Shown here piece after piece: positions 40,863 through 58,703 of a DNA stretch of 64,000 nt. Below the pieces are notes generated by a model. It did no database searches. It worked only from the letters and a program-made list of their open reading frames with translations, and was not told the DNA's origin. How positions within the stretch are numbered: position 1 is the first letter of the stretch; each line of letters opens with the position of its first letter. The position numbers and the translations under genes are program-made. The stretch comes from an uncultured Maribacter sp. (GTDB lineage: Bacteria; Bacteroidota; Bacteroidia; Flavobacteriales; Flavobacteriaceae): the NCBI GenBank assembly GCA_947493885.1, contig CANLTE010000008.1, forward strand, positions 1 to 64,000, in the 5' to 3' direction.

Positions 40863-40992
40863 TTTTCTTTTATTTAGAGAAAGAATTATAAATGCAAAAT
40901 TTAGCCCTTAATCGTAAAATTCATTATTGATAAGGGTTAATTATAAAATATTAAACAATGAAATTATTTTTCATCATTAGAAGAAACTCAAA

Positions 40993-43418: not shown

Positions 43419-43421
43419 AAA

Positions 43422-44180: not shown

Positions 44181-45515
44181 TATCATTGGAGAAATTATAT
44201 TACCTATAGAGTTTGATATCTCATTTGGGCTGCTCTTTTTTTCTTGTAAAGACCTTAAAAGATCGTTAAGCTTAGTGCTATCACTATCAACAACGTGATT
44301 GTATTCATTATCACCAACTAAACTCTTTAAGTGTTGGCTGTATAACCCATCTATATCTATAGAAATAGTTGGTGTACCCAAAGCGATACTTTCCAAAGCG
44401 CAAGTAGAATAAATAGTTAAATGGTAATCACAATACTTCAATAATAAATAAGTATTAACATCTTCCCATTTTATAAAGTTGTTTTTAGCTTTAAATAATA
44501 CTTTATTGCTTTTTTTTCTAGGTTTATAAATAAATAAATAACTAGGAAACTTATCCACGGATTCATTTATTAAATCCAATAGCTTATTATCTGTATCTTC
44601 CAATTGACCAGTAATACAAATAACCTTATCATATTCGTTTAGATAAAAACTCATTTTTGAGCTAACTTTAAGACATTTATTAGCTTCATACAGAAAAGAA
44701 TAGCCATAGTCGAGAGTTTGAGATTTATTAACGACATTCCCCTTGGATACCACATCGTTAAAATGAGAGCCGTATCCTAAAAAAAAGTCTGGAAAAAAAA
44801 CATTACCATAATTTTTAGAAAAATTATAAGCCCTGTGTTGCTCCGTAACTATTCCGTGCTGAAGCTCCAAAACAGGTACTTTACTTTTTTTACAGGCTTT
44901 TACAAGTCCAAAATTAGAATAATAACAAACAACAAAAACCGCTTTAGGCTTTCTTACTTTAAACAAAAAAGTGTAAAATAAATATGACACATGATAACGG
45001 TGATAAATGCTTTCAATTTTATTTAAATTCATCCCCATATAGTTACCTAAAACCTCTAAACCTTCTATTTTAGGTTTTTTTGTTATTCTTATAATAAAAT
45101 ATTGAATCAAATAAATCCATGACATTCCTACAAGTAACTCTCCTTTCTGAAGGCTTTTTTTTCTCGAACGCCCTTTCGGAATTGGATTTTCAAAAAGAAC
45201 GTACTTATCAAAATAACTTAACAGTCCCGAGGTTACTCTATCAAAATAAATATTGTTAATAGCGTATCTTCTTTCAGAATTCGTAAATACCCAAATATTA
45301 GATTTGTAAATCTTGAATACAGAAAAAACATCTAAAATCAAGCTTTTTAATAACAGCCCAATTACTCCTAAAGATGTTTTTTTTAACATATCACTTTTTG
45401 AAGGATATAGAGTAATCAGATAACTCTTGACAATAGGCCAAATACAATCATCCTCATGTTTTATTTGAGAAACATCTATCTCTTTTTCAATTTTATTTAA
45501 AGAACTCAAAAACAA
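44121..45515 (-). CDS. GT-B-type transferase, candidate nonulosonic acid transferase
   Basis: 464 aa, no membrane anchor or signal peptide. The central block VPVLELQHGIVTEQHRAYNF...PDFFLGYGSHF, then VICITGQLED...FIYKPRKKS and a C-terminal LLLKYCDYHLTIYSTCALESIALGTPTISID are the GT-B/polyprenyl-phosphate and capsule-transferase pattern (the 'ST.ALE...GTPT' donor site is strong). It starts inside the BNR lipoprotein 3' end and ends overlapping the GT2 gene. It is a fair candidate to attach the CMP-activated nonulosonate, but no bacterial sialyltransferase motif (D/E-D/E-G, HP) was clearly identified. Confidence 0.68.
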   Translation of the reverse strand: MFLSSLNKIEKEIDVSQIKHEDDCIWPIVKSYLITLYPSKSDMLKKTSLGVIGLLLKSLILDVFSVFKIYKSNIWVFTNSERRYAINNIYFDRVTSGLLSYFDKYVLFENPIPKGRSRKKSLQKGELLVGMSWIYLIQYFIIRITKKPKIEGLEVLGNYMGMNLNKIESIYHRYHVSYLFYTFLFKVRKPKAVFVVCYYSNFGLVKACKKSKVPVLELQHGIVTEQHRAYNFSKNYGNVFFPDFFLGYGSHFNDVVSKGNVVNKSQTLDYGYSFLYEANKCLKVSSKMSFYLNEYDKVICITGQLEDTDNKLLDLINESVDKFPSYLFIYKPRKKSNKVLFKAKNNFIKWEDVNTYLLLKYCDYHLTIYSTCALESIALGTPTISIDIDGLYSQHLKSLVGDNEYNHVVDSDSTKLNDLLRSLQEKKSSPNEISNSIGNIISPMISKEFFFEFFNNIVKKKSCH

Positions 45516-46921
45516 CTATTATTTAATTTTTTAAAATACACTTTTGTTTTGTTAGACTTACTTACTCCTTGGGTAAATAAAAGCTTGGGAGCATAATTAT
45601 CTTCACGGCTTAAACTTGGAAGCCATGAAGGCCCATCTACGTTAAAATCTTTTGACGTAACCTTTTTCATCACTTTGTAAGAAGAATTCATCTGTATTAA
45701 TTTCAATATAGAATTTTCCTGTTCTTCTCCCCATAATTGCAACCCATTATAATGGTTTTTATTCATTGCAGTAGCAACCATATATAATTTATCTTTGTAA
45801 AAAGAAAGGGATGATGGACAATATAAATAATCCATATCTTCATCCAAATTTATTTTTTTATGTATCCATTTACCTTCCTTTTTATAGGTAAGAAATAAAC
45901 TTGATTTGTTTTTAAATTCTTTTGAATATAAAAAATGTGGGGTTCCATTAGAATCCAATGCAATATTGCTGATACCATAGTTACTTTTAACTTTATTATA
46001 GTCCCAATTTCCTGCAACAACCTTTATGTCTTTAGGATATGCTGGAGTTTGTATTTTATCAACTCCATTTATCCAAGTTAAACCTCCATCTGATGACATT
46101 AAATACCCAACAAAATAGGACCCTCCATTTCTAGAATTCGTAAATTCATATGTTTTATTTCTTGGTAAATATTCATAATTTTTAAAGGATACATGAATAT
46201 TATTTTGATTATCAGTAGCAATTGACTTATTCCATCTGGTATATCCATTTTTAACTGCTAAATTTTTAGGGTCACCTTTAACCTCACTAATTTTGGGCCA
46301 ATTTTCATAGTTAGACCTCAATAACTCCTTTCCCTTTGACCAATTTTCATTTTTGGCTTTCGAAAAAAACATTAAACTCCATGCTCCTTTAATTATTGAA
46401 TGCCTCCCTAATAAATATAGCTTATCATTACTGTCTATTGTTAACGAAGGATAAGTCATATAAGAACCTATTAAAGTCTTCCCCCCCCAAGAATCACCTC
46501 TAAAGGGTTTAGAAGATTTTCTATAAACAAAAGGGCCAAGATGTGGTCCATATACTAAATGAAGATATCCTTTACTATCTATAACAATAGAGCCTCCTCC
46601 ATGGTTATCATAGACGGTATCTATTATTTTTTCTGGCAACCACTTATCTTTAGATTTGTCAAATGTTTTAAAGACAATTAGCTCTTCATTATCTTTATGA
46701 TTTAGGTATGTAATAAAAATTTCATTTTCTGTCTCAATTATTTTGTTTGAATCTATATATGCCGTTGCTCGTGAAGAGCCGTTTTGTGAAACTAGAATAG
46801 CTTCTAGAGTTTTATTTATTTCTTCTTTTTGGCCATAACAAGAGAACAGCAGCAGCAGCAAAGGGAAGAAAAACCTTTTTTTAAAAATAAAAATACTTTT
46901 ACCTACTTTGGTTAAATTCAT
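45506..46921 (-). CDS. Sialidase-fold (BNR/Asp-box) lipoprotein
   Basis: 471 aa from ATG 46921 (longer start at 46960 overlaps the SDR gene). Signal with lipobox LLFSC (Cys28 in this start). Then a repeated beta-sheet pattern with several 'D..N.(L/I)H..Y/F' blade strands and one perfect Asp-box SSDGGLTW near residues 276-283, as in six-bladed BNR propellers. Catalytic Arg triad of sialidases could not be assigned. It could be a surface glycan-binding or cleaving lipoprotein linked to the nonulosonate polymer made by its operon, but that is inference. Confidence 0.75.
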   Translation of the reverse strand: MNLTKVGKSIFIFKKRFFFPLLLLLFSCYGQKEEINKTLEAILVSQNGSSRATAYIDSNKIIETENEIFITYLNHKDNEELIVFKTFDKSKDKWLPEKIIDTVYDNHGGGSIVIDSKGYLHLVYGPHLGPFVYRKSSKPFRGDSWGGKTLIGSYMTYPSLTIDSNDKLYLLGRHSIIKGAWSLMFFSKAKNENWSKGKELLRSNYENWPKISEVKGDPKNLAVKNGYTRWNKSIATDNQNNIHVSFKNYEYLPRNKTYEFTNSRNGGSYFVGYLMSSDGGLTWINGVDKIQTPAYPKDIKVVAGNWDYNKVKSNYGISNIALDSNGTPHFLYSKEFKNKSSLFLTYKKEGKWIHKKINLDEDMDYLYCPSSLSFYKDKLYMVATAMNKNHYNGLQLWGEEQENSILKLIQMNSSYKVMKKVTSKDFNVDGPSWLPSLSREDNYAPKLLFTQGVSKSNKTKVYFKKLNNSCF

Positions 46922-46937
46922 CCTACTATAGTTGGAT

Positions 46938-47684
46938 TTATATAGCGGTCCAACCTCCATCTATCATAAGATTGTGACCAGTAATAAAAGATGCTTCATT
47001 AGACAACAAAAATGTAATTGAAGGTGCTATTTCCTCTGGTCTTCCCAAACGCTTTAAGGGCGATTTATTCTCATACCTTTCAATAAAAGAAAAATCTTGC
47101 TGATCCTTTATTCCTCCGGGAGAGACACAATTAATGCGTATCCCATGTTTTCCATAATAGGAAGCCAAATATCTTGTAAAGTTAATAATGCCTCCTTTTA
47201 TCGCCGAATAAGCTGCTGGAGAAGTTCCTCCATATCCCTCATATATCGTAAAATCATTCCCCACAACACCATAAATAGAAGATATATTAACTATAGATCC
47301 ACTTTTTTGCTGTTTCATTACTTTTAATACTTGCTGACATATATAAAAAACACTATTCATTTGCATATCAACGTTATGCCTCCATGATTCTAATGTAACA
47401 TCTTCAAACTTATTTCCCCAATCTTTAGTTCTAGGATAGGCATTATTAACCAAACCATCAATTCTTCCAAATTTTTTGATTACAAAATCAATCAATTCTA
47501 ATATTGATTCTTGAGAAGTTATATCACAAGCATAATTGCCAGATTCAATATTCGTTTTATTACTTATATCGGCGTTAATAACAATTGCCCCATTCTCTTT
47601 CAAGTGTTCTAAAATGGGGTTTCCAATTAAACCGCTTCCACCAGTGACAATTATTACTTTGTTCTTTAATCGTTCTGCAAACAT
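46938..47684 (-). CDS. ptmA: Short-chain dehydrogenase of the nonulosonate operon (PtmA-like)
   Basis: 248 aa classical SDR. TGGSGLIGNPI nucleotide loop, NNAYPRTKDWG, SIYGVVGNDF catalytic Ser, and YSAIKGGI (YxxxK). The C-terminal FLLSNEASFITGHNLMIDGGW is typical. An SDR beside a CMP-nonulosonate synthetase is the ptmA arrangement of Campylobacter, where it is needed for legionaminic acid glycosylation. The exact reaction is uncertain. It overlaps the Gfo/Idh gene by 19 bp. Confidence 0.8.
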   Translation of the reverse strand: MFAERLKNKVIIVTGGSGLIGNPILEHLKENGAIVINADISNKTNIESGNYACDITSQESILELIDFVIKKFGRIDGLVNNAYPRTKDWGNKFEDVTLESWRHNVDMQMNSVFYICQQVLKVMKQQKSGSIVNISSIYGVVGNDFTIYEGYGGTSPAAYSAIKGGIINFTRYLASYYGKHGIRINCVSPGGIKDQQDFSFIERYENKSPLKRLGRPEEIAPSITFLLSNEASFITGHNLMIDGGWTAI

Positions 47685-48577
47685 ATTTTTAGTATTTCAT
47701 AAGCTTCATAAGCCGAGTTAAATTTTTCATTGTAAGTAAGAACTTCATTTATAAAAAATTTCAACTGATCATCATACGTGTCAATTATTGTTTTTTCTGA
47801 TTCAAAAATAATATCGTTATTACGATAAACTTTATTCTTTAATAAATCTACCAAAATTGTTTCTTCCTCTAATACTATCTCTAAAGTTCTTTTTGAATCC
47901 TTTCTAAAATAATTTAACACAATACCTACATTAAATCCTGTATAATTCAAAACATAATTAGCGTAATCAAAGGAGTTTATATTTAATGAAGACTTATTTG
48001 ACAGAATCTTAGAAACAGAGATAGGCTCTCCGAATAACCAATAAGCATAATCAATTTCATGAATCAAATCCATATGGACTCCTCCTCCTTGTTCTATATT
48101 AGCACTATATGTAGATTTATAATCTCTGCCTGGTCTCCAATCCGGTAAATACGAGCCACAATATATATTAACTTCATTAACTCTTTTATTAATGATATAA
48201 CCTTTTGTAAACCTTAAACAATCCATAAACCTAAGATTGCACGCTACATAGTTAATATTATTGTTTTCTCTAATTTTGTTAACCAAAACTCCATTGTCAA
48301 GATTAGAAATAAGTGGTTTTTCAATAAATAAAGGAATATTATAAGGAATTATATTCAATATAGTTTCCCTATGTTTAGAGGTGAGGTTAGAAATAATTGC
48401 AAAATCAATGTTTAAATCTTTTACCTCATCCAAAGAAAATATATTCTGAACTCCCATGACTTCGCTTACCTTGTCTGAAGACCTTAGTGCATATATATGT
48501 GAGTTAAATTTAATTTTTTTTAATGCTGAAATATGCTTTTGTGCTATAGATCCTAGGCCAACGATTAAGACTTTCAT
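47666..48577 (-). CDS. Gfo/Idh/MocA-family oxidoreductase
   Basis: 303 aa. N-terminal LIVGLGSIAQKHISALKK Rossmann fold, then FIEKPL (the conserved EKP block) and YRPGRDYKSTYSANIEQGGGVHMDLIHEIDYAYWLFGEP. It would oxidise or reduce a sugar using NAD(P). Its position between the cytidylyltransferase and SDR genes marks it as part of the nonulosonate module; an oxidoreductase of this kind is common there, but the reaction is not fixed. It overlaps both neighbours. Confidence 0.87.
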   Translation of the reverse strand: MKVLIVGLGSIAQKHISALKKIKFNSHIYALRSSDKVSEVMGVQNIFSLDEVKDLNIDFAIISNLTSKHRETILNIIPYNIPLFIEKPLISNLDNGVLVNKIRENNNINYVACNLRFMDCLRFTKGYIINKRVNEVNIYCGSYLPDWRPGRDYKSTYSANIEQGGGVHMDLIHEIDYAYWLFGEPISVSKILSNKSSLNINSFDYANYVLNYTGFNVGIVLNYFRKDSKRTLEIVLEEETILVDLLKNKVYRNNDIIFESEKTIIDTYDDQLKFFINEVLTYNEKFNSAYEAYEILKICLQND

Positions 48578-49290
48578 ATTTTAAAATCCAATTTATTAGC
48601 ACTAAAAAGGTATTCCATAAAATCAAAATCCAAGGACTCATCTAAATCAAAGCAAATATGATCCATAAGAAAAAACAAGCTCTTATTTGTTATTGAAGAT
48701 TTAAGTTTTTGCTCAAAAAAACTTCTTCTATAAAAATAAAATGATGCATTCATATCATATACTTTTGGGGCACTCTGTCGAGAAAAAGTATTACTCTGTT
48801 TAACTAACTTACAATAACCATCATCTTTACTTTCAACGACATTAAAATAGGGGTTTTTATGTGGCTGAGAAACTGAAAATATATTTAAGGCCTCCTTATT
48901 TTCTAAAAATATCTTTAAAGCCTCCTTTAAATCATCAATATTTCTAAGAGGCGAAGTAACATCTAAATCCAAAAGAATGTCGTATTTTTTTTCATGTCTT
49001 TTTTCTTCATACTTTAGTATGTGTTCAAGTACTTCAATTTTTCCAGCGGAATCACTCGCCAAATGTCTAGGTCTTAAATAATCCGTATATAATCCAGAAA
49101 TTTCTGCCACTTTTTTTATTTCATGACTATCCGTTGATAAACTGATATCTATGTCATATGGAAGCAAAGCAAATTCCATTGCATGTTTAATAGAATAATC
49201 TATTAAAGGTTTTCCAAATAATTTTTTAATATTTTTTTCAGGAATACCCTTAGAGCCACCTCGGGCACAAATTGTTATCAAAACATTCAT
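48574..49290 (-). CDS. legF: CMP-nonulosonate (legionaminate) cytidylyltransferase
   Basis: 238 aa. CARGGSKGIPEKNIKKLFGKPLIDYSI is the acylneuraminate cytidylyltransferase signature, and LDLDVTSPLRNIDDLKEAL continues it. It activates the nine-carbon acid with CTP to CMP-sugar, the donor for the transferase. NeuA and LegF cannot be told apart by sequence alone; the LegB/LegC context favours legionaminate. It overlaps the Gfo/Idh gene by 4 bp. Confidence 0.9.
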   Translation of the reverse strand: MNVLITICARGGSKGIPEKNIKKLFGKPLIDYSIKHAMEFALLPYDIDISLSTDSHEIKKVAEISGLYTDYLRPRHLASDSAGKIEVLEHILKYEEKRHEKKYDILLDLDVTSPLRNIDDLKEALKIFLENKEALNIFSVSQPHKNPYFNVVESKDDGYCKLVKQSNTFSRQSAPKVYDMNASFYFYRRSFFEQKLKSSITNKSLFFLMDHICFDLDESLDFDFMEYLFSANKLDFKI

Positions 49291-49292
49291 TA

Positions 49293-50339
49293 CTATAACT
49301 TAATCTTGTTTATATCTTGCTGTGCTTTTTTAAAATCTTCATGTTTTCCAACATCAAGCCAATAGCCCGTTAAAGGGTACGAGATTACTTTTAAACCTTG
49401 TTGAATAAGCTTTTCCATTAAATCTGTAGCATTAAAAAAACTATTTTTAGGTATATAATTTAATATAGAGCGTTTAATCAAATATATCCCACCGTTAGAA
49501 TAATAAGTATATGTTGGTTTTTCTTTAAAACTCATAACATTCTCATTGCTGGTCTCTAATACCGCATAAGGAATAGTAACCTGATATGGAATAGTAACTA
49601 CAGAGAAATCTGCTTTCTGTTTAATAAAATCTAAAAAGAAACTTTCATAATTTAAATTAGTAAGAATATCAGAATTTGTAACCAAAACATAATCATGTTC
49701 AAAATTTTGAATTTTTGAAACTGCCCCAATAGTTCCTAAGGGTTCGTCTTCCCAAACGTATTTTATTTTGGTATTTTTAGAACTGCCGTTACCAAAATAA
49801 CTCTCTATTTGTTCTCCTAAATATTTTACGGACACCCAAAAATCATCGATTCCATAATGAGATAATCTATCCAAATTATGTTCCATAATTGGCTTAGCTC
49901 CAACTTTTAACAATGGTTTTGGAGTAGTTTCTGTCAGAGGTCTAAGTCTAGTTCCTTTTCCTCCTGCCATTATTACAGCATCAACAGGTAAATAAGAGGA
50001 AATCTGCCTGAAATTAATCACATTTACAACCCTGTCTTCTTTATCAAGAACAGGAAGTATTTTAAAATTACTTTCTCTATATTCTATAATTTCATGAATA
50101 TTTTCCTCCCCCTTTTTTATAAACTTAGGATTCTTCTGAATAATATCATTTACTTTACTATCAATTGTAACTCCTTTTATAAGTCCTCTTCTTACATCTC
50201 CATCCGTTAAAGATCCTATTAATTTATCTTCATGGGTAACGACAAACAAAATTGCATCACTTGCCAACTCATCTAATCTTACTAATGCCTGTTTAATTGT
50301 ACTTTCCGTTAGCAACAGATGCTCTCTATAATTTCTCAT
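49293..50339 (-). CDS. ptmE: CBS-domain nucleotidyltransferase (PtmE-like guanylyltransferase)
   Basis: 348 aa. Residues ~10-115 hold two CBS motifs (VTHEDKLIGSLTDGDVRRGLI, VLDKEDRVVNVINFRQI). From ~120 a nucleotidyltransferase domain has MAGGKGTRLRPLTETTPKPLLKVGAKPIME and KHEDFKKA. The CBS-nucleotidyltransferase fusion next to neuC/neuB homologues is PtmE, which makes GDP-GlcNAc for legionaminic acid synthesis in Campylobacter. That it uses GTP here is inferred. It overlaps the 2-epimerase gene by 14 bp. Confidence 0.87.
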   Translation of the reverse strand: MRNYREHLLLTESTIKQALVRLDELASDAILFVVTHEDKLIGSLTDGDVRRGLIKGVTIDSKVNDIIQKNPKFIKKGEENIHEIIEYRESNFKILPVLDKEDRVVNVINFRQISSYLPVDAVIMAGGKGTRLRPLTETTPKPLLKVGAKPIMEHNLDRLSHYGIDDFWVSVKYLGEQIESYFGNGSSKNTKIKYVWEDEPLGTIGAVSKIQNFEHDYVLVTNSDILTNLNYESFFLDFIKQKADFSVVTIPYQVTIPYAVLETSNENVMSFKEKPTYTYYSNGGIYLIKRSILNYIPKNSFFNATDLMEKLIQQGLKVISYPLTGYWLDVGKHEDFKKAQQDINKIKL

Positions 50340-51438
50340 TGAAATCTTTGATTTTATTTATAATTATTAAAGAAGCATCTCTCTTAAAATATTTATTTTT
50401 TCCTTGATACTCATTTAGATTAATTGCTTTTAGAGTTTGATTTACAATTTCATCTGACTTAAATGGTACATTTATTATATTATTACTCTGTAATCGTCCT
50501 TTCTGTCGATTACCCACATTTATTGTATATTTCTTAAAGGATGCTGCTTCTATAATACCACTTGAAGTATTGCCAATCAATAATTTCGAATACCACATTG
50601 CTGAAAAATAATTTATCTTTCCAAAATTTTCTATTAGTACCACTCGTTTTGATAGTTTTTCTTTTAATTCATAAATTTCTTGACGATATACTGTCCCAAG
50701 AGTATCCGCATTGGGCATTGTAATAACAATATTTATATATTTAGAAACTTCAGACAATGCTCTCTTCATTTCCTTTGCATAAAACTTATTCATAGAGACG
50801 GATACCGTTTCCGGATGAAATGTAACCAAAACAAATGGTTCTTGCTTTATCTTAAAGTTATTATAAAACGTTTCCTTTTCAATAGGAACGAACCTATTTA
50901 TTTCTTCCAAACTTAACGAACCTGTTGTATACACATTTTTATTAGAACCAATAACTTCAGTAACCTTATTTGTATATTCTGAAGTAGCAGTGAAATGTAA
51001 AGACGAGGCCAAAGTAATTTGATGTCTATAAATGTTATCTATTGCTCCAAGAGTTGTCTCACCTCCATGGATATGAGCGAATTTTACACCAAAAGGAATT
51101 CCAGCCTGTACTGCAGCACTCATTTCAAATCGATCACCCAAACAAACAACTAAATCATATTTATTTTTATCCCAGAATTCCGAAAATTTCAAAATTGTTA
51201 ATCCATATGAAGAAGCAATCGCTAACTCATCATCACTGGTAAGTAATGAGCTAATTGCATGAATTTTTTCATAGTCATCTTTTATAATACTTTCTATCGT
51301 ATACCCATGAAAATTAGACAAATGTGTTCCAAAAGCAACAATTTCAAGTTCAAAAAAAGAATCCCTTTTAAGTTTATTTAAAAGAGGTAAATAAATACCA
51401 TAATCAGCTCTGGAGCTTGTTAATACTGCTGTTTTCAT
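50326..51438 (-). CDS. legG: Hydrolysing NDP-sugar 2-epimerase (NeuC/LegG-type)
   Basis: 370 aa. TSSRADYGIYLPLLNKL, VVCLGDRFEMSAAVQAGIPFGVKFAHIHGGETTLGAIDN and VTFHPETVS are the NeuC blocks, with GNTSSGIIEAASF at the C-terminal substrate site. It releases the 2-epimerised free sugar from the nucleotide, producing the substrate for the synthase. In a legionaminate pathway that is 2,4-diacetamido-2,4,6-trideoxymannose. It overlaps the synthase gene by 4 bp. Confidence 0.92.
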   Translation of the reverse strand: MKTAVLTSSRADYGIYLPLLNKLKRDSFFELEIVAFGTHLSNFHGYTIESIIKDDYEKIHAISSLLTSDDELAIASSYGLTILKFSEFWDKNKYDLVVCLGDRFEMSAAVQAGIPFGVKFAHIHGGETTLGAIDNIYRHQITLASSLHFTATSEYTNKVTEVIGSNKNVYTTGSLSLEEINRFVPIEKETFYNNFKIKQEPFVLVTFHPETVSVSMNKFYAKEMKRALSEVSKYINIVITMPNADTLGTVYRQEIYELKEKLSKRVVLIENFGKINYFSAMWYSKLLIGNTSSGIIEAASFKKYTINVGNRQKGRLQSNNIINVPFKSDEIVNQTLKAINLNEYQGKNKYFKRDASLIIINKIKDFNEKL

Positions 51439-52436
51439 ATTAAATCATCTTCTTCATAATCTTTTGTTGCTACTTTACCCAGAATTGTATCCCAGAGCAT
51501 AGGTGAAATTCCAATTCCAGGCCTTTTGACAGTTATATTTTTGTTGCTAAAGACATCCCCTTTTTTAATAGAAGTTTTCGCAATTATACTTTTACGAGCT
51601 ATTGGTTTATTTTTTTTCTCGCTATCACTAGGTTCTTTTCTTCCATGACCTAATGCCTTTTCTATATTTCTAATTGCTTTTACCATAGCCTTTAACTCCT
51701 TTGGATCCAAAGAAGCCTTGTGGTCAGGTCCCTCTAAAGTTTTATCTAAAGTAAAATGTTTTTCTATCACTTTTGCTCCTAATGCTACAGCTGCTACAGG
51801 AATCTCTATACCTAAAGTATGGTCGGAGTAACCAATTGACACATCAAAAGCTTCCTCTATGGTACTCATCGCCTTTAAATTAACGTCTTCCATAGGTGTT
51901 GGGTACTCCGTATTACAATGCAGAACTGTGATATCCGATTTACTAGTTCCTGCACCTAGTATTGCTAGAATAGCTTCCTCAACCTCTTTAAGGTTCGCCA
52001 TTCCTGTGGAAATAATAACCGGTTTACCCAAACTTCCAATTTTTCTTAAATATGGTAAATTGGTGATTTCTCCAGAAGGAACTTTAAACAATGCTATATT
52101 TAATTCATTAAGAAAATCTATACTTTCTAAATCAAAACCTGTAGATAAAAACTTGATACCTTTTAAATTACTATATTTTATTAATTCAAGATGCATTTCT
52201 CTACTAAGCTCTAACCTTTGAAGCATAGCTAACTGAGATTCTGACGAATTCCCTGTGTTTTTCTTTTGATATGAAGCTTTTTCGGCATTTTTACTTACCA
52301 ACTTTTTTGAATTAAAAGTCTGAAATTTAACATAATCCACATTGGCGTCTGCTGCTGCTGCAATTAATTTTTTTGCTAAATTAATATCTCCGTTATGGTT
52401 AACTCCAGCCTCTGCAATAATTAAAGTTTTTTTCAT
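51435..52436 (-). CDS. legI: Nonulosonic acid synthase (NeuB/LegI-type)
   Basis: 333 aa. EAGVNHNGDINLAKKLI...VKFQTF at the N-terminus and GYSDHTLGIEIPVAAVALGAKVIEKHFTLDK give the TIM-barrel NeuB core. Residues ~275-333 are a SAF (antifreeze-like) domain. It condenses the hexosamine with phosphoenolpyruvate to make the nine-carbon acid. The sequence does not separate sialate from legionaminate or pseudaminate synthase; the neighbours do. Confidence 0.93.
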   Translation of the reverse strand: MKKTLIIAEAGVNHNGDINLAKKLIAAAADANVDYVKFQTFNSKKLVSKNAEKASYQKKNTGNSSESQLAMLQRLELSREMHLELIKYSNLKGIKFLSTGFDLESIDFLNELNIALFKVPSGEITNLPYLRKIGSLGKPVIISTGMANLKEVEEAILAILGAGTSKSDITVLHCNTEYPTPMEDVNLKAMSTIEEAFDVSIGYSDHTLGIEIPVAAVALGAKVIEKHFTLDKTLEGPDHKASLDPKELKAMVKAIRNIEKALGHGRKEPSDSEKKNKPIARKSIIAKTSIKKGDVFSNKNITVKRPGIGISPMLWDTILGKVATKDYEEDDLI

Positions 52437-53074
52437 TGAGTTATTTTTTTTGCCGGCACACCAATTAAACGACCATTGTTTTGTACATCTTTAGTAACCA
52501 CAGCTCCAGCTCCTATTTTATTTTTTGTGCCTATTTTTAGATACTGAAGAACAGTACTATTCGTACCTATTAAATTCTCATCTCCAATATTTACACCTCC
52601 AGAAATTACTGCGCAAGGATTTATAACATTATATGATCCAATAATACAATCATGTCCTAAATGTACTCCTCTATTAATATAATTAAAGGAACTCAAAGAT
52701 GTATCAACAGTTAACACGCATTGAGCTGAAATTACGTTTCCCATACCTAAAGAAAAACTATCATCTATGTAAACGCTGGGGTGAATTATATTGGGAAAAG
52801 CAAAATTTTCTTTTAGCCTATAAGTTTCAACAATTTTTTTTAATCTATCTACATCTCCCAAACCAAATACAATCGAAACTTCATTGCACTTTTTTAAAAA
52901 ATCTAATTCATTATAAACTTCATGCTTAACATTTCCAATACTTAAAAACTTTTGGGGTTTTACATCAATAAATCCCTTAAAATCATAAACTTGGTTTGCA
53001 AAATTTATTTCTTTAATAAGTAAAAAAATTTCCTTTGCTGCTCCTCCTGCCCCAACAATATATATTTGTTTCAT
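52433..53074 (-). CDS. legH: NeuD/PglD-type sugar N-acetyltransferase
   Basis: 213 aa. IVGAGGAAKEIF N-terminal Rossmann-like part, then hexapeptide repeats IHPSVYIDDSFSLGMGNVISAQCVLTVDT...GHDCIIGSYNVINPCAVISGGVNIGDENLIGTNSTVLQ and a NGRLIGVPAK tail. It would acetylate the 4-amino sugar produced by the aminotransferase. It overlaps both neighbours by 4 bp. Confidence 0.88.
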   Translation of the reverse strand: MKQIYIVGAGGAAKEIFLLIKEINFANQVYDFKGFIDVKPQKFLSIGNVKHEVYNELDFLKKCNEVSIVFGLGDVDRLKKIVETYRLKENFAFPNIIHPSVYIDDSFSLGMGNVISAQCVLTVDTSLSSFNYINRGVHLGHDCIIGSYNVINPCAVISGGVNIGDENLIGTNSTVLQYLKIGTKNKIGAGAVVTKDVQNNGRLIGVPAKKITQ

Positions 53075-54210
53075 ATTACAACACTACTTGGTAAATTTAC
53101 CACCCGTTCTTCAAACCATTTTGAATTTTCAAGATTTCCAGTTTGAGATGTCTTAAACATGGGCAAGCTAGTCATTAACTTCCAAATTGGTCTGGTCATT
53201 ACTCCATTCTCATTAGTGATTTTAAGAAAAAAATTTCTCTCTTTTATATTCTCCAATAAAATTGCGTTAAGCCAATAGTTAGAAACCGCATCTTTTGAAA
53301 CGTCAATATATTGTAATGGTGTATCCTTAAAAAACATTTTATACTTATTTGCCATTTTTTGTTTCTTTTCCAAAATAAAAGGAAGTTTTTCCATTTGAGC
53401 ACAGCCTAATGCAGCATTAATATTTGGAAGACGATAATTATATCCAATCATATCATGTTTATAATCCCATGGATGCGATATTTTTGCTGTTGTAGTTATA
53501 TGTTTTGCCTTTATTGCTATGCCTTCATCATTAGTTACTAACATACCGCCTCCTCCAGTAGTAATAGTTTTATTTCCATTAAAACTAAACGCCCCTAAGA
53601 GACCATAAGTGCCAGTGTGTTTTCCTTTGTAATAGCTTCCCAGAGATTCCGCCGCATCTTCTACAACAGCAATATTAAATCTATCACAGACAGAAACAAT
53701 ATCATCTATTTTTAAAGGTAATCCAAATGTATGCATAGGAACTACAGCTTTTATTGCTCTCTTTGTAATTTTATTTATACAGACTCCATTTTGAACTTCT
53801 GCATTTTTCATCAAAAAATGCTCTAATTTTTCCGCAGATAACCCTAACGTCTCTTTATCCACATCTACAAATATTGGTTTCGCACCAATATAACTTATTG
53901 CATTTGTGGTTGCAATAAAGGTTAAAGGCTGTGTAATTACTTCATCATTTTGACTTACTCCTGCCATTAACAGTCCGGTATGAAGCGCTGCTGTTCCATT
54001 TGATGTTGCAATAGCATACTTCGCGCCTGTAAATTTGGCAACTTCATCTTCGAATTGATCAACAAATTTCCCTACACTCGAAACAAAAGTAGAATCAATA
54101 CATTCATTAAGATACTTTTTTTCATTACCTGTAAACACAGGAGCATGCAAAGGAATAAACTCATTTGTTTTAAATGCCTCTCTTGTAAAGGATATAAATT
54201 CTTGATACAT
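53071..54210 (-). CDS. legC: PLP-dependent sugar aminotransferase (LegC family)
   Basis: 379 aa, DegT/DnrJ/EryC1/StrS family. FSFNGNKTITTGGGGML holds the PLP lysine in the FNGNK motif. EDAAESLGSYYKGKHTGTYG and YNYRLPNINAALGCAQME follow the usual order. N-terminal FIPLHAPVFTGNEKKYLNECIDSTFVSSVGKFVDQFE matches the LegC subgroup. It transfers an amino group to C4 of the 4-keto sugar made by LegB. Confidence 0.92.
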   Translation of the reverse strand: MYQEFISFTREAFKTNEFIPLHAPVFTGNEKKYLNECIDSTFVSSVGKFVDQFEDEVAKFTGAKYAIATSNGTAALHTGLLMAGVSQNDEVITQPLTFIATTNAISYIGAKPIFVDVDKETLGLSAEKLEHFLMKNAEVQNGVCINKITKRAIKAVVPMHTFGLPLKIDDIVSVCDRFNIAVVEDAAESLGSYYKGKHTGTYGLLGAFSFNGNKTITTGGGGMLVTNDEGIAIKAKHITTTAKISHPWDYKHDMIGYNYRLPNINAALGCAQMEKLPFILEKKQKMANKYKMFFKDTPLQYIDVSKDAVSNYWLNAILLENIKERNFFLKITNENGVMTRPIWKLMTSLPMFKTSQTGNLENSKWFEERVVNLPSSVVI

Positions 54211-54213
54211 ATT

Positions 54214-55401
54214 TTACATTTTACTATCCAAATATTTTCCAGTTTCTTTATGTCCAAAGTCCGGTATCATTTTAAAAAACAAATCAACTATATCTTTCTT
54301 TTCCCATTTTTTACTATTCTTCAAAGCCTTAATATTTTCAGTAAAATATTCTAAAATTTCATTATCAAAATCTAAACTATTTTTTATTATTCCTAGATTC
54401 TGAAACCTATCCATATCTAGGCTTTCTTTATCAGTAAAAAATTCCTCAAAGTCTTTTTCTCCAGTCGTATCACTAGAAGAAAACAGGCATGGCCATTTAC
54501 CTTCTTTTGGAAGAATGTTCACCAATTTTCTGGCTTCCTTTTCGTCTTCACATATATACGGTTCGTAACCCAAATCTTTTAAATACTTTACAGCAATATC
54601 TGCAAAGGAAATAAGGTGTAAATTCTCGCTCAGTTTAGGAAAAAAAATATCCCTGTTTTCACCAAAAATGCATGACATTAGGCATAACTCACCTGATTCC
54701 TTGGGAATAACAAAATATCTTTTAATATCATTTGGAGCAGCTATAGGTTGTAGTTTTTTAATTCTTTGGTCAAATCCATATAACAATGAGCCATCTGAGA
54801 AAGCAACATTTGCAAATCTAGCTGTGGAAATTTCAATTTCTTTACTTTTTCTCATCAAATACATTTCCATAATTCTCTTAGAGGCCCCCATCATATTAAC
54901 AGGATTTGCAGCTTTATCGGTAGACACACAAAAGTATTTTTTAACTCCTTTTTTAATTGATTGATTCAATGTTTTTTCTGTATTAAAAATATTTACATCA
55001 ATCATTCTCATTAAAGTAAAAGCATCCTTTTCACTTCTAACATGTTTTAAAGCTGATAAATTTAAAACATAATCATATATTCCATCTTTTTCAATAAACG
55101 CATCATACTCTAAAGAACTAATGTCCAACGCAAATGTTTGAAAATCTCCAGTTATATAACCAAAAGAGCTTCTAATATCTCTTACAAGTTCAACTAAATT
55201 ATTTTCACTAATATCAACAACATGGAGTTTTTTAGGGTTTCTCTTAAATATTTCTTTGGTAACAGCTTGACCAATAGAACCCGCTCCTCCAATCACCAAA
55301 AAAGAAGACCTTCCAACTATATCAAATAAATCTCTTTCATGATATTCAATATCACCAGTAAATAACTCTTTATTTCTACCAATTAAGGCTAATTTATTCA
55401 T
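54214..55401 (-). CDS. legB: NDP-N-acetylglucosamine 4,6-dehydratase (LegB-type)
   Basis: 395 aa. The FLVIGGAGSIGQAVTKEIF binding loop and VSTDKAANPVNMMGASKRIMEMY catalytic region belong to the FlaA1/WbpM/PglF-type dehydratases, where Tyr of YxxxK is replaced by Met. The 4-keto-6-deoxy sugar it makes feeds LegC. Legionaminate LegB uses a GDP-sugar, pseudaminate PseB a UDP-sugar; the PtmE homologue in the operon points to GDP. It is the first gene of the nonulosonate run, 30 bp from the broken end of rmlD. Confidence 0.9.
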   Translation of the reverse strand: MNKLALIGRNKELFTGDIEYHERDLFDIVGRSSFLVIGGAGSIGQAVTKEIFKRNPKKLHVVDISENNLVELVRDIRSSFGYITGDFQTFALDISSLEYDAFIEKDGIYDYVLNLSALKHVRSEKDAFTLMRMIDVNIFNTEKTLNQSIKKGVKKYFCVSTDKAANPVNMMGASKRIMEMYLMRKSKEIEISTARFANVAFSDGSLLYGFDQRIKKLQPIAAPNDIKRYFVIPKESGELCLMSCIFGENRDIFFPKLSENLHLISFADIAVKYLKDLGYEPYICEDEKEARKLVNILPKEGKWPCLFSSSDTTGEKDFEEFFTDKESLDMDRFQNLGIIKNSLDFDNEILEYFTENIKALKNSKKWEKKDIVDLFFKMIPDFGHKETGKYLDSKM

Positions 55402-55431: not shown

Positions 55432-56208
55432 TTAGCAATCCAATACTGAAAAGGCCGGTCTTACAGCAAGACTATCAAATCTATCAATTCTGTTTAATGA
55501 CAACCGAGAACCTAAATTAGTCTCCCTCAAAATTTTCTGTGCAAACTCGTACCAACTCATAGGTAATCCATCGGAATAATGATACAATCCATAAGGCTTA
55601 TTTTCAATTATTGTTTCAATTAAAAATTTGGTTAACATATATGTACTTGTTGGGCGCCCATACTCATTATCGACAATATTAAGGCTTCCTCCTTTTATTG
55701 CTTTATCTAAAACAAACCGATAAAAGTTTTTACCATAATCTTTACAATATAGCCAAGATGTTCTTACAATATAATAGTTGCTTAACGTATTTTGAATGTT
55801 TTGTTCACCTTTTAATTTAGATTTTCCGTACTCATTAATTGGGTTAGGAATATCATAAACTGTATAGGGTTCTTTTTTTTTTCCATCAAAAACATAATCC
55901 GTTGAAATATGAATTAAAGTAACGTCATTTTCTTTACAAATATTTGCTATGTTTTTGACAGCCTCTGAATTAACTTTATACGCTACTTCTGGGGTCTTCT
56001 CCGCATGTTCCACATTAGTATAAGCTGCACAATTGATGCAATAATCAAAATTACCTTTCTTAAAAGTATTTTCGATTAGATTTTCATCTGTTATGTCCAA
56101 ATGCAAAGAACTCTTAAAAACAAATTCTATTTCTGAATAATTTGTAGAAATTTGTTGAATTGTCCAACCTAACTGACCTGAAGCACCTGTAACTAAAACC
56201 TTTTTCAT
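55432..56208 (-). CDS. rmlD: dTDP-4-dehydrorhamnose reductase, C-terminally truncated
   Basis: 258 aa from ATG 56208, which shares one base with the rmlC stop. VTGASGQLGWTIQQIS binding loop, AAYTNVEHAEK, STDYVFDGKK and YGKSKLKGEQ (YxxxK) are intact. The frame stops straight after RPAFSVLDC, where family members continue for about 25 residues (S/N-K-I/L-K...W...L). A +1 shift at the stop would read NKLK before another stop, so the end looks like recombination or frameshift damage. The catalytic core is whole but the C-terminal helix is missing, so activity is uncertain. Confidence 0.88.
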   Translation of the reverse strand: MKKVLVTGASGQLGWTIQQISTNYSEIEFVFKSSLHLDITDENLIENTFKKGNFDYCINCAAYTNVEHAEKTPEVAYKVNSEAVKNIANICKENDVTLIHISTDYVFDGKKKEPYTVYDIPNPINEYGKSKLKGEQNIQNTLSNYYIVRTSWLYCKDYGKNFYRFVLDKAIKGGSLNIVDNEYGRPTSTYMLTKFLIETIIENKPYGLYHYSDGLPMSWYEFAQKILRETNLGSRLSLNRIDRFDSLAVRPAFSVLDC

Positions 56209-56750
56209 CAAAACATTGAATTAAAAGTTGGCAATGCCAAGTCTTTTTCGGAAAGTATTAAATCTATATCTGAATAACCCCATTCAATTTTTAAGTCTGA
56301 ATCGTTAAATATAATACCTCTTTCTGATTCTTTATTATAATAATTATCACATTTATAACTAAAAAAAACATCATCTGTTAATGTTAAAAAACCATGCGCC
56401 ATACCTTTCGGTACAAAAAGCATTTTACTATCCTCTCCTGACAATTCAACTTTAATATGCTGCCCAAATGTTGGGCTTTTCTTTCTTAAATCAACAACAA
56501 TATCTACAACCTTTCCATTTATAACTTTAATTAATTTTGCTTGAGAAAAACTTCCTTCTTGAAAGTGTAACCCTCTAAGAACTCCTTTTTTAGAAACGGA
56601 ACAGTTATCTTGAACAAAATTGATTTGATAACCCAATTTCTCTTCCAACTTTAACTTATTAAAGGATTCATAAAAACATCCTCTATTATCTTTATATACA
56701 TCAGGTTGAACTATAAAACACCCTTGTAAATTTGTTTCTTTAATGTTCAC
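56208..56750 (-). CDS. rmlC: dTDP-4-dehydrorhamnose 3,5-epimerase
   Basis: 180 aa cupin. VLRGLHFQ holds the catalytic His and KGMAHGFLTL the second conserved His; YKCDNYYNKESERGI follows. It epimerises C3 and C5 in the dTDP-rhamnose pathway. It shares 1 bp with rmlD and lies 21 bp after rmlA. Confidence 0.96.
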   Translation of the reverse strand: MNIKETNLQGCFIVQPDVYKDNRGCFYESFNKLKLEEKLGYQINFVQDNCSVSKKGVLRGLHFQEGSFSQAKLIKVINGKVVDIVVDLRKKSPTFGQHIKVELSGEDSKMLFVPKGMAHGFLTLTDDVFFSYKCDNYYNKESERGIIFNDSDLKIEWGYSDIDLILSEKDLALPTFNSMF

Positions 56751-56771
56751 GGAAGTGTTCTTTTTTTGAAT

Positions 56772-57632
56772 TTAATTTAAAAGTCGCATCAAATATTTAC
56801 CGTATCCACTTTTTAACAAAGGTTTGGCCAACTTTTCTAATTGTTCATCATTAATATAACCCATATGGTAAGCAACTTCTTCAATTGATCCCACCTTAAG
56901 ACCTTGACGTTCTTCAATTACCTCAACAAATTTCGATGCTTGCATTAAAGAATCAAAAGTACCCGTATCCAACCATGCAATTCCTCGGTCTAGTTTACTT
57001 ACTTTTAAATTACCGCGTTTCAAGTATATTTTGTTTACATCTGTGATTTCCAATTCTCCTCGGGCACTTGGTTTAATGGATTTGGCAATAGAAACAACAT
57101 CATTATCATAAAAATAAATTCCAGTAACCGCAAAATTAGATTTTGGTTTATGCGGTTTTTCTTCTATAGATATTGCTTTCCCTTTTTTATCAAACTCTAC
57201 TACTCCATACCTTTCTGGATCCTGCACATGATATGCATATATTATTCCTCCTTCTGGGTTATTGTTCTCAAGTAATAATGAAGCCAAGCCTGATCCGTAA
57301 AAAATATTATCTCCTAAAATAAGTGCAACCTTGTCATTTCCAATAAATTTTTCGCCAATAATAAAAGCTTCCGCCAATCCATTTGGTTTTTCTTGAAAAG
57401 TATATTCAAATTTACATCCAAGCTTAGAACCATCCCCTAAAAGGTTTTTAAATAGTTTTATATCCTGCGGAGTTGTAATTATTAAAATCTCATTTATACC
57501 CGCAGACATTAAAGTTGCCAAAGGATAATAAATCATGGGTTTGTCATAAATAGGCATTAACTGCTTACTTAAAGCCATAGTTATTGGATACAACCGTGAT
57601 CCTGTTCCCCCTGCTAATATTATACCTTTCAT
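56772..57632 (-). CDS. rmlA: Glucose-1-phosphate thymidylyltransferase
   Basis: 286 aa. [14 protein letters not shown]...[39 protein letters not shown] and [12 protein letters not shown] are classic RmlA-short signatures. It forms dTDP-glucose from glucose-1-phosphate and dTTP. It lies 10 bp after rmlB. Confidence 0.97.
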
Positions 57633-57642
57633 TACGTTTTAC

Positions 57643-58698
57643 CTACTGATACTGTTTTTTATAATAATTTAAATAATCCCCACAAACAACATTATTTAAC
57701 CATTCTTGATTTTCTAAATACCAATTAACTGTTTTTTCAAGACCTTCTTCAAACGTTACTTCGGGCTTCCAACCTAACTCTTCATTAATTTTAGTTGCAT
57801 CAATAGCGTATCTTAAATCATGCCCAGGGCGGTCTTTTACAAAAGTTATTAATGCTTCAGAACTACCTGAAGGTCTCTTTAACTTTTTGTCCATTAATTT
57901 ACACAATACCTTAACCAATTCAATATTTCTCCATTCATTAAAACCCCCAACGTTGTATGTCTCATGGTTTTTACCTTTATGAAAAACTAAATCAATGGCT
58001 TTTGCATGATCTTCAACATACAACCAATCTCTAGTGTAGTTTCCATCTCCGTAAACTGGCAAACTTTTATTGTTCATTATATTATTAATAAACAATGGAA
58101 TTAGCTTCTCAGGAAAGTGATTTGGCCCATAATTATTGGAACAATTTGTAATAACATAAGGTAAACCATAAGTTTCCCCGTATGCTCTAACAAAATGATT
58201 AGAACTCGCTTTTGAAGCAGAATATGGAGAATTAGGCGCAAACGGCGATAATTCTGTAAACAATCCTTTCTCTCCTAGAGAGCCATATACTTCATCAGTG
58301 CTTATGTGATAAAATCTTTTATTAGTATAATCCTTTTTCCATAAATCATTAGCAGCGTTTAATAAATTCATTGTTCCTATTACGTTAGTTTTAACAAACG
58401 TTAATGGATTTGCAATAGATCTATCTACATGAGACTCAGCCGCCAAATGAATAACACCATCGAAATTAAACTTCATAAACAGCTCATTAACAAATTCAAT
58501 ATCATTAATATCTCCTTTAACAAAAGTGTAATTTGAACATTTTTCAACGTCCTTTAAATTCTCAAGATTACCTGCATAGGTTAAGGTATCTAAATTATAA
58601 ATATGATATTGTTTATAATTTAAAACAAATCTCCTAACTACGTGTGATCCTATAAAACCAGCGCCACCAGTAACGAGTATTTTTTTGAAATTTAACAT
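57643..58698 (-). CDS. rmlB: dTDP-glucose 4,6-dehydratase
   Basis: 351 aa from ATG 58698. KKILVTGGAGFIGSHVVRRF, HISTDEVYGSLG, YSASKASSNHFVRAYGETYGLP (YxxxK) and NCSNNYGPNHFPEKLIPLFI are diagnostic. A longer frame from 58752 would add 18 residues that overlap the Wzz gene and match nothing in RmlB, so the shorter start is used. It makes the 4-keto-6-deoxy intermediate of dTDP-rhamnose. Confidence 0.97.
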   Translation of the reverse strand: MLNFKKILVTGGAGFIGSHVVRRFVLNYKQYHIYNLDTLTYAGNLENLKDVEKCSNYTFVKGDINDIEFVNELFMKFNFDGVIHLAAESHVDRSIANPLTFVKTNVIGTMNLLNAANDLWKKDYTNKRFYHISTDEVYGSLGEKGLFTELSPFAPNSPYSASKASSNHFVRAYGETYGLPYVITNCSNNYGPNHFPEKLIPLFINNIMNNKSLPVYGDGNYTRDWLYVEDHAKAIDLVFHKGKNHETYNVGGFNEWRNIELVKVLCKLMDKKLKRPSGSSEALITFVKDRPGHDLRYAIDATKINEELGWKPEVTFEEGLEKTVNWYLENQEWLNNVVCGDYLNYYKKQYQ

Positions 58699-58703
58699 TA
58701 CAC

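Follow-up and report, generated by a model that had tools for sequence, protein, structure and literature searches.

The stretch of DNA analysed here, referred to below as the window, comprises 64,000 nucleotides from an uncultured Maribacter sp. of the Flavobacteriaceae (assembly GCA_947493885.1, contig CANLTE010000008.1, positions 1 to 64,000 of the forward strand). Its minus strand carries, from position 55401 down to 46938, a nine-gene operon that is apparently a complete set for a sialic-acid-like surface sugar. The last two genes encode a Gfo/Idh-type oxidoreductase and a short-chain dehydrogenase/reductase (SDR), which form a tailoring pair. Across 70 loci and the window, the presence of this pair changes once on the tree of the accompanying cytidine monophosphate (CMP)-nonulosonate synthetase and many times on the trees of the other pathway enzymes. 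We lean towards the view that the operon makes CMP-8-epilegionaminic acid, the 8-epimer of the 5,7-diamino sugar legionaminic acid (Leg), for a surface polysaccharide; 8-epilegionaminic acid (8eLeg), or another Leg tailored at C8, appears a somewhat better candidate for the product than Leg.

The nine open reading frames (ORFs) follow the order given in a first reading of this DNA made from the letters alone (the sequence-only reading), which had described them as tightly packed, with gaps of at most 3 bp or overlaps. The eight measured intergenic spacings (3, -4, -4, -4, -14, 2, -4 and -19 bases) agree with that description. Eight of the nine proteins match sugar-nucleotide, nonulosonate or SDR families at E ≤1e-14 and the Gfo/Idh protein matches its Pfam family at 3.7e-9, so chance is no issue and the operon is real. 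Its genes, in order of transcription, are:

54214..55401, minus strand: sugar-nucleotide 4,6-dehydratase, 395 amino acids (aa); PF02719, MxxxK type STDKAANPVNMMGASK; of the Elg1/3pvz type, not LegB TIGR04180
53071..54210, minus strand: LegC-family aminotransferase of the pyridoxal phosphate type; TIGR04181 544.6 bits (cut-off 420)
52433..53074, minus strand: LegH/NeuD-type hexapeptide N-acetyltransferase; TIGR03570 161.3 bits (cut-off 160.8), PglD_N and Hexapep domains
51435..52436, minus strand: LegI/NeuB-type nonulosonate synthase with a SAF domain; TIGR03569 510.3 bits (cut-off 399.65)
50326..51438, minus strand: LegG/NeuC-type hydrolysing 2-epimerase; TIGR03568 353.1 bits (cut-off 235.9)
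49293..50339, minus strand: PtmE-type sugar-1-phosphate nucleotidyltransferase with an N-terminal CBS domain (CBS and NTP_transferase, Pfam), proposed maker of guanosine diphosphate (GDP)-N-acetylglucosamine (GlcNAc)
48574..49290, minus strand: CMP-nonulosonate synthetase of the "pair" clade (PF02348/CTP_transf_3; trees), with D110 at the position of Q104 in Neisseria meningitidis NeuA
47666..48577, minus strand: PtmF-type Gfo/Idh oxidoreductase (PF01408/PF22725), proposed inverting C8-keto reductase
46938..47684, minus strand: SDR oxidoreductase, PtmA/PRK09186-like, with S136, Y159 and K163 present, proposed C8-OH dehydrogenase

The sequence-only reading had listed the Gfo/Idh gene without a role. 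The gene is present and is not incidental, its product being the PtmF-type partner of the SDR; a table for Plesiomonas shigelloides names the oxidoreductase of that species PtmF, beside PtmA (PMC4481668). The label "PtmA-like" given to the SDR is not borne out by the PtmA model for flagellin modification proteins (NF050062; 155.4 bits, cut-off 350) and stands in a looser sense, the protein lying near the broader PRK09186 family (252.8 bits, cut-off 255), which also takes Campylobacter coli PtmA (370.1) and the SDR of Escherichia coli O61 (350.1). Catalytic-type residues are present in both members of the pair. The Gfo/Idh protein has the conserved motifs EKP and GGG...HEID, and its sole match in its own genome at E 0.001 is itself. 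Among solved structures it has weak matches only (best 2.1e-07), including 6z3b/6z3c and YjhC (6o15), which are sialic-acid oxidoreductases; these matches score too poorly to carry an argument.

Comparable loci came from three sets of searches: the window's dehydratase was run against 395 genomes of the phylum, PtmE against 395 genomes from the order, 395 from the phylum and 101 from the Campylobacter phylum, and the LegC model against 60 relatives. Eighty regions and five E. coli loci were annotated, giving 85 loci, 84 of which have a PtmE above 200 bits. Gfo/Idh and SDR genes were counted from 100 and 130 bits upwards, respectively, if they lay within 9 kb of PtmE and on the same strand; the labels "pair" and "none" are tied to these cut-offs and to a reference set drawn from the window, E. 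coli and C. coli. Both genes were found in 28 of the 84 loci, neither in 50 and the SDR alone in six; Gfo/Idh was never found alone (0/84). The dehydratase of the 28 pair loci is of the 395-aa type in 13 and of the LegB type in seven, with neither in reach in the other eight. The order PtmE, CMP-synthetase, Gfo/Idh, SDR is shared by the window and nine of 11 pair loci of its phylum, whereas the E. coli and Campylobacter-phylum pair loci have PtmE, Gfo/Idh, CMP-synthetase, SDR; the association of the pair has thus outlived rearrangement.

Tree tests were made on the window and the 70 loci with all four core genes (28 with the pair, 39 with neither gene, three with the SDR only); the other 14 of the 84 lacked a CMP-synthetase, PtmE, LegI or LegG by the thresholds used. 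The three SDR-only loci stand in the CMP-synthetase tree and outside the pair/none counts. On that tree the pair state changes once, both in FastTree and in a quick IQ-TREE run (support 95). A more careful tree, built without the long-branch rows L103 and L114, again has one change (support 100/95; 200 of 200 bootstrap trees), compared with a shuffled mean of 22.5. The pair state changes 16 times on the PtmE tree (shuffled mean 22.4), 16 on that of LegI (22.2), 14 on that of LegG (22.1), 14 on that of LegC (51 rows; 14.9) and nine on that of the dehydratase (33 rows; 10.9). Independent-pairs contrasts on starred branches numbered 13, 10, 8, 9 and 5; both traits entered carried the same label (CMP-synthetase clade equals pair state in the counted rows), and the contrast numbers alone are informative. 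A supplier of precursor would be expected to track PtmE, and the tracking of the CMP-synthetase by the pair suggests that the activated sugar differs. Given one change on the CMP-synthetase tree against 13–16 over all trees made of PtmE, LegI and LegG, the nonulosonate is the probable substrate of the pair. This coupling was not found in the titles or abstract openings covered by a narrow literature search, which is weak evidence of novelty.

Every one of the 39 "none" rows has Gln at position 110 of the CMP-synthetase, and no pair row does: of these 29, 26 (the window and Campylobacter included) have Asp and the three from E. coli have Pro. Position 110 aligns with Gln104 of N. meningitidis NeuA, which presumably lines the sugar pocket. 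No residue signature common to all pair loci was found among the 29 pair rows. Four further CMP-synthetases were placed, and three fell on the expected side: that of O108 (identical to a row of the tree), one from Sphingomonadaceae (pair) and one from Moritella (no pair, 11.7-kb contig). A Moritella viscosa contig was also the one match when kin of nonulosonate CMP-synthetases were sought in phages.

The E. coli loci connect the pair with recorded products. Window dehydratase/LegC DNA matches 23 of 5,426 complete E. coli genomes. A query with the Gfo/Idh, CMP-synthetase and SDR genes of O61 finds 15 of these 23 genomes and no others, the match spanning the whole cassette in six and the CMP-synthetase and SDR half only in nine; Gfo/Idh is annotated in both loci opened from these nine (L004 and L165). 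The remaining eight genomes (seven with an O161-locus score, and NT1F31) gave no match to the O61 cassette at blastn sensitivity. Loci with the O61 flippase (L005) and the O108 flippase (L165) have Gfo/Idh, CMP-synthetase and SDR, whereas two with the O161 flippase (L003 and L171, those opened of seven equal-score matches) have the core and neither Gfo/Idh nor SDR. The O61 and O108 O-antigens contain 8eLeg (PMC3628348, in a passage for O61 and as a cited title for O108), and O161 is described in a passage of PMC4875605 as making Leg. Vibrio fischeri has homologues of PtmA and PtmF (PMC4481668, table) and 8eLeg in its O-antigen (PMC7940393, in a passage). In Acinetobacter baumannii, lgaABCDEFG leads to Leg and lgaABCDEF with elaABC to 8eLeg (a passage of PMC9676051), LgaG being a cytidylyltransferase (a passage of PMC12053666); the extra genes have already been proposed to convert CMP-Leg, made first, to 8eLeg or acinetaminic acid (a passage of PMC5595891). 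The cassette SDR is split into two ORFs in E. coli ECZP248 (L004, 19954–20717) and intact in PE164 (L165, 21953–22717, O108); if the split SDR is inactive, the O-antigen of ECZP248 may differ at C8.

The free hydroxyls of Leg5Ac7Ac are those at C4 and C8, and the recorded products point to C8. The reactions, the position and the final sugar that we infer for the window are as follows. PtmE would make GDP-GlcNAc and the 395-aa dehydratase a 4-keto-6-deoxy sugar, to be aminated at C4 by LegC and then acetylated by LegH. LegG would remove the nucleotide and epimerise C2, and LegI would condense the sugar with phosphoenolpyruvate to give a legionaminic acid. The SDR would then oxidise the free C8 hydroxyl to a ketone, which the Gfo/Idh protein would reduce from the opposite face, inverting C8. 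The CMP-synthetase of the matching clade would activate the product, and tailoring before or after CMP activation are both possible. Leg, of D-glycero-D-galacto configuration, and 8eLeg, of L-glycero-D-galacto configuration, have the same mass, and mass cannot separate the epimers.

The SDR is also found with other partners. A class III aminotransferase (PF00202; 430–437 residues) lies near the SDR in all six SDR-only loci, a partner guessed before the outcome of that search was seen. In SDR trees, built without the split SDR of L004, 34 cassette SDRs (28 with Gfo/Idh, the window included, and six with the aminotransferase) group against 17 SDR paralogues from the window's own genome (support 93), and the aminotransferase partner arises at least three times inside the group. 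With five SDRs added, which include two from archaea and one from Priestia, the group persists at a support of 75. The best solved relatives of the L126 aminotransferase are glutamate-1-semialdehyde aminomutases, and C-6' aminotransferases and an aminopentol aminotransferase also occur. In a pse cluster of Priestia, an aldo/keto reductase adjoins an SDR 40% identical to that of the window. EpaA (cytidylyltransferase plus aldo-keto reductase) with EpaB (an SDR) converts pseudaminic acid (Pse) to its 8-epimer, 8-epipseudaminic acid, a result obtained by nuclear magnetic resonance (NMR) according to a passage of PMC12053666. The simplest reading of an SDR family found with two kinds of oxidoreductase and one kind of transaminase is that the SDR makes a ketone and the partner uses it. 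A broader scheme can be put forward tentatively: a mobile three-gene cassette (CMP-synthetase, SDR and a second enzyme) may rewrite C8 of nonulosonates across bacteria. In this scheme the SDR would form the 8-ketone and the partner would set the outcome (the 8-epimer with Gfo/Idh, that of Pse with an aldo-keto reductase, and an 8-amino sugar with a class III aminotransferase), and the CMP-synthetase clade would predict the tailoring.

The six loci with SDR and class III aminotransferase (L064, L089, L094, L110, L126 and L134) may hold a pathway to an 8-amino nonulosonic acid, and the CMP-synthetases of L089, L126 and L134 form a clade of their own (support 100/99). Nonulosonates with an 8-amino group are known from Tenacibaculum maritimum. 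On a Priestia megaterium plasmid (L166, 4829–12763), the aldo/keto reductase and SDR genes lie between pseC and pseG, and the predicted product is 8-epipseudaminic acid.

The core of the operon is predicted to be a pathway to a 5,7-diamino nonulosonic acid, and not to pseudaminate or N-acetylneuraminic acid (Neu5Ac). The sequence-only reading had reached the same view, with a PtmE-type nucleotidyltransferase and without pseudaminate. Its labels LegC, NeuB, NeuC and NeuD are borne out by curated models over their cut-offs (TIGR04181, TIGR03569, TIGR03568 and TIGR03570), and those of the CBS-nucleotidyltransferase, CMP-synthetase, Gfo/Idh protein and SDR by Pfam matches. The operon proteins stay below the cut-offs of the PseB (63.4 bits, cut-off 407.75) and PseC (242.6, cut-off 423.5) models, and none of the nine matches that of PseG. 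The synthase, 52–57% identical to those of five Leg-type E. coli loci, reaches 301.3 bits on the PseI model (cut-off 340.25), and the best model for the CMP-synthetase is PseF, below its cut-off.

The name "LegB-type" suits the dehydratase (54214–55401) as an enzyme class and fails as a family: the protein belongs to PF02719 and has no match to the LegB model TIGR04180, on which C. coli LegB scores 466.8 bits, just below the cut-off of 475, and the LegB of L105 scores 498.3. Its best solved relative is 3pvz_A (E 2.6e-209), named uridine diphosphate (UDP)-N-acetylglucosamine 4,6-dehydratase. It is 75–79% identical to the dehydratases of the five E. coli loci, a level far above that of the other eight operon proteins (24–58%); in the Plesiomonas table a 395-aa protein is named LegB (PMC4481668). 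The best NCBIfam match of the PtmE-type protein is mannose-1-phosphate guanylyltransferase, below cut-off. It has no close relative among solved structures, the best match being a UTP--glucose-1-phosphate uridylyltransferase, and uridylyl-, guanylyl- and thymidylyltransferases all occur among its solved relatives, so that GDP and UDP use are not separable by sequence. A PtmE gene is present in all ten same-phylum loci with the 395-aa dehydratase that were fetched (from 12 genomes with a dehydratase match, that of the window included), one of them with an internal stop codon, and this co-occurrence makes a GDP-linked pathway plausible.

Several observations weigh against 8eLeg or against the coupling on which it rests. 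The pair state is mildly clustered on the PtmE (16 changes) and LegG (14) trees too, below 200 of 200 shuffles. The cassette genes adjoin, so shared transfer could explain part of the coupling; PtmE is usually equally close, which limits this account. One "none" locus (L114) ends at PtmE on a contig edge. The fourth added CMP-synthetase, a haloarchaeal protein with a long branch and a different layout, fell on the unexpected side. Its locus, on a Halorussus plasmid (L167, 8983–17628), has neuB, neuC, a cytidylyltransferase, two SDRs and Gfo/Idh, with the CMP-synthetase outside the pair clade. The window's SDR and Gfo/Idh protein are only 36% and 31% identical to their O61 counterparts. Ten Plesiomonas proteins are said to match the O161 Leg set (a passage of PMC4875605), a statement at odds with the two O161-typed loci examined here, which do not have ten such genes. 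Within the pair clade, the window's CMP-synthetase groups with Campylobacter and not with E. coli (support 86), and it shares Asp110 with Campylobacter as against Pro in the E. coli pair rows (O61 and O108-like). The split at position 110 weakened our preference for 8eLeg from a fairly clear one to a slight one and took a little from the already tentative cassette scheme; it also made the Campylobacter-type explanation considered next less unlikely than it had been, if still unlikely.

According to that explanation, the operon is an ordinary GDP-linked Leg operon of the Campylobacter kind, in which PtmA (the SDR) and PtmF (Gfo/Idh) supply glucosamine 6-phosphate (GlcN-6-P) for GDP-GlcNAc. Schoenhofen in 2009 reportedly placed PtmA and PtmF in this GlcN-6-P/GDP-GlcNAc supply. 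Five named Campylobacter loci (L076–L080) carry the SDR, Gfo/Idh and a pair-clade CMP-synthetase. The C. coli locus L076 has kin of LegC, LegI, LegG, PtmE, Gfo/Idh, CMP-synthetase and SDR, and Campylobacter jejuni is reported to make Leg, by a six-enzyme route to CMP-Leg in whose description the pair does not figure (a passage of PMC9298399). The Plesiomonas paper gives the same gene set the names PtmA, PtmF, PtmE and Leg (PMC4481668). Against a supply role, PtmE is kept in the 50 of 84 loci without the pair, the O161 Leg locus of E. coli among them, and the pair tracks the CMP-synthetase much more tightly than it does PtmE. An ordinary GlmS is encoded in all three genomes checked (that of the window and two of Campylobacter), which leaves no obvious need for the pair in making GlcN-6-P. 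The window dehydratase is not LegB, and in Plesiomonas the sugar was identified from mass spectra (the term "NMR" is absent from the paper's text; PMC4481668), a method blind to epimers that brings no decision between them. Either the pair has another role in Campylobacter, or the configuration at C8 is worth checking there.

For 8eLeg, the position of tailoring has an improbable alternative: the pair may act elsewhere than at C8, for instance on the C4 hydroxyl, to give a 4-epimer or other derivative. C4 and C8 are both free in Leg5Ac7Ac, and 4-epilegionaminic acid is a natural isomer (a passage of PMC5595891); the products recorded for pair-bearing E. coli and V. fischeri are nevertheless 8-epimers, the EpaAB precedent works at C8, and some solved relatives of the L126 aminotransferase act, judged by their names, on chain positions. 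It is very improbable that the 395-aa dehydratase fixes C8 in place of the pair, through inversion of C5 of the hexose. This was our first hypothesis, and in its favour the window's dehydratase matches the 4,6-dehydratase/5-epimerases FnlA/CapE with about as high a score as the PglF-type WlaL protein. It was rejected: O161 (Leg) and O61/O108 (8eLeg) share the dehydratase family, with 75–79% identity to the window, and pair status is unclustered on the dehydratase tree (nine changes, shuffled mean 10.9). A Pse or Neu5Ac operon, which the family names NeuB, NeuC and NeuD and the sub-threshold PseF match might suggest, is less probable still, as PseI and PseC are below cut-off, NeuB_NnaB and LegC above, PseG is matched by none of the nine proteins and Neu5Ac needs neither a 4,6-dehydratase nor an aminotransferase.

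The closest known systems are the elg/wei loci of E. coli O61 and O108, which make 8eLeg and have the same nine roles, including Gfo/Idh, SDR and a pair-clade CMP-synthetase. The dehydratase is 78–79% identical to that of the window, the SDR 36–41% (41% from a fragment), the Gfo/Idh protein 31–32% and the CMP-synthetase 30–34%; they differ from the window in gene order (PtmE, Gfo/Idh, CMP-synthetase, SDR versus PtmE, CMP-synthetase, Gfo/Idh, SDR) and at residue 110 (Pro versus Asp). The leg-ptm loci of C. coli and C. jejuni share LegC, LegI, LegG, PtmE, a CMP-synthetase with Asp110, Gfo/Idh (PtmF) and SDR (PtmA), but have a TIGR04180 LegB (322 aa), further locus genes and Leg as the reported product. 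The specific match to Campylobacter claimed in the sequence-only reading is therefore not supported, as LegB there is of another family and E. coli O61/O108 share the gene set and make 8eLeg. Its broader wording, "legionaminic acid or a close relative", fares better: 8eLeg suits "relative", and Leg is kept possible by the Campylobacter pair loci reported as Leg makers. The flagellar locus of P. shigelloides 302-73 likewise encodes a dehydratase of 395 aa and all of the set, PtmA, PtmF and PtmE included, and the V. fischeri homologues are PtmA, NeuA and VF_0143 to VF_0146 (PMC4481668, Table 5). Both were compared by the published table only; the Plesiomonas product was called Leg from mass spectra and that of V. 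fischeri is 8eLeg. In A. baumannii, elaABC takes the place of lgaG beside a Leg core; this module of three genes, of which elaA encodes a putative oxidoreductase, follows the same idea as in the window; ElaB and ElaC would be the cytidylyltransferase and SDR, the likeness being one of published description in the passages cited above. The phage-borne EpaA–EpaB system (PMC12053666) likewise has a cytidylyltransferase domain with a reductase and a PF13561 SDR that change C8; it differs in acting on Pse and in an aldo-keto reductase fused to the cytidylyltransferase in place of Gfo/Idh.

The operon itself thus belongs to a known kind, and its interest lies in the cassette rule across phyla and in the Campylobacter question. 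As Leg and 8eLeg are equal in mass, either one is apt to be called "legionaminic acid" in genome annotation and in mass spectrometry alike. Should the configuration at C8 be readable from the pair and the CMP-synthetase clade, many loci now labelled Leg would be misread, perhaps flagellar ones too. The biochemistry of 8-epimerisation would then be testable with two purified enzymes; PtmA and PtmF of Campylobacter would be tailoring enzymes and not precursor suppliers, and the "legionaminic" glycans there would need a re-check at C8. Arguments about sialic-acid mimicry hinge on C8 stereochemistry. The related acinetaminic pathways are said to need biochemical studies (a passage of PMC5595891).

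The window's genome has a single NeuB match (E 0.001). It also holds 20 matches to the Por secretion tail family, 19 of them marked as over the cut-off of that family, as suits a member of the Bacteroidota. The LegC model is over its cut-off in six of the 60 genomes searched, the window's included, and in none of the seven other genomes of the genus among them, so the operon is an accessory locus that has probably been exchanged. A second LegC-like aminotransferase is encoded elsewhere in the window's genome (G000:C10:78209-79255; 387.8 bits, below the cut-off of 420). The genes around the operon are:

55432..58752, minus strand: rmlD, rmlC, rmlA and rmlB-like genes (deoxythymidine diphosphate-L-rhamnose), 30 bases upstream of the operon
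45506..46960, minus strand: BNR_4 lipoprotein-like gene with no proven pathway role, overlapping the SDR gene by 23 bases
44121..45515, minus strand: DUF354-like protein of 464 aa, candidate glycosyltransferase, overlapping the preceding gene by 10 bases
39615..44180, plus strand: surface-polymer assembly genes for a Wzx flippase, a 394-aa protein without a Pfam match, a Wzy_C-type protein and a GT2 glycosyltransferase

With the rml genes 30 bases away on the upstream side and two overlapping genes downstream, the transcription unit probably extends beyond these nine genes. The surface-polymer setting proposed in the sequence-only reading is supported by the Wzx, Wzy-type and glycosyltransferase genes nearby; with the rhamnose genes upstream, they indicate that the sugar is probably destined for an envelope polysaccharide. 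The RmlD-like protein (55432–56211, minus strand; 259 aa) ends in "...RPAFSVLDC" and matches PF04321 to position 260 of 287; about 27 C-terminal residues seem to be lost, just 30 bases ahead of the operon, which looks like truncation at a junction. The BNR_4 lipoprotein-like gene is an odd neighbour for a rhamnose and nonulosonate operon. Its product has a weak match to the BT3686 alpha-L-rhamnosidase model (26.1 bits, cut-off 700), and none of the 85 loci holds a relative of it at E 1e-6. The 464-aa DUF354-like protein is 48% identical to the product of a gene in a Leg-type locus (L086), has weak relatives (22–39%) in six further loci of the 85, and is a candidate nonulosonyl or other glycosyltransferase.

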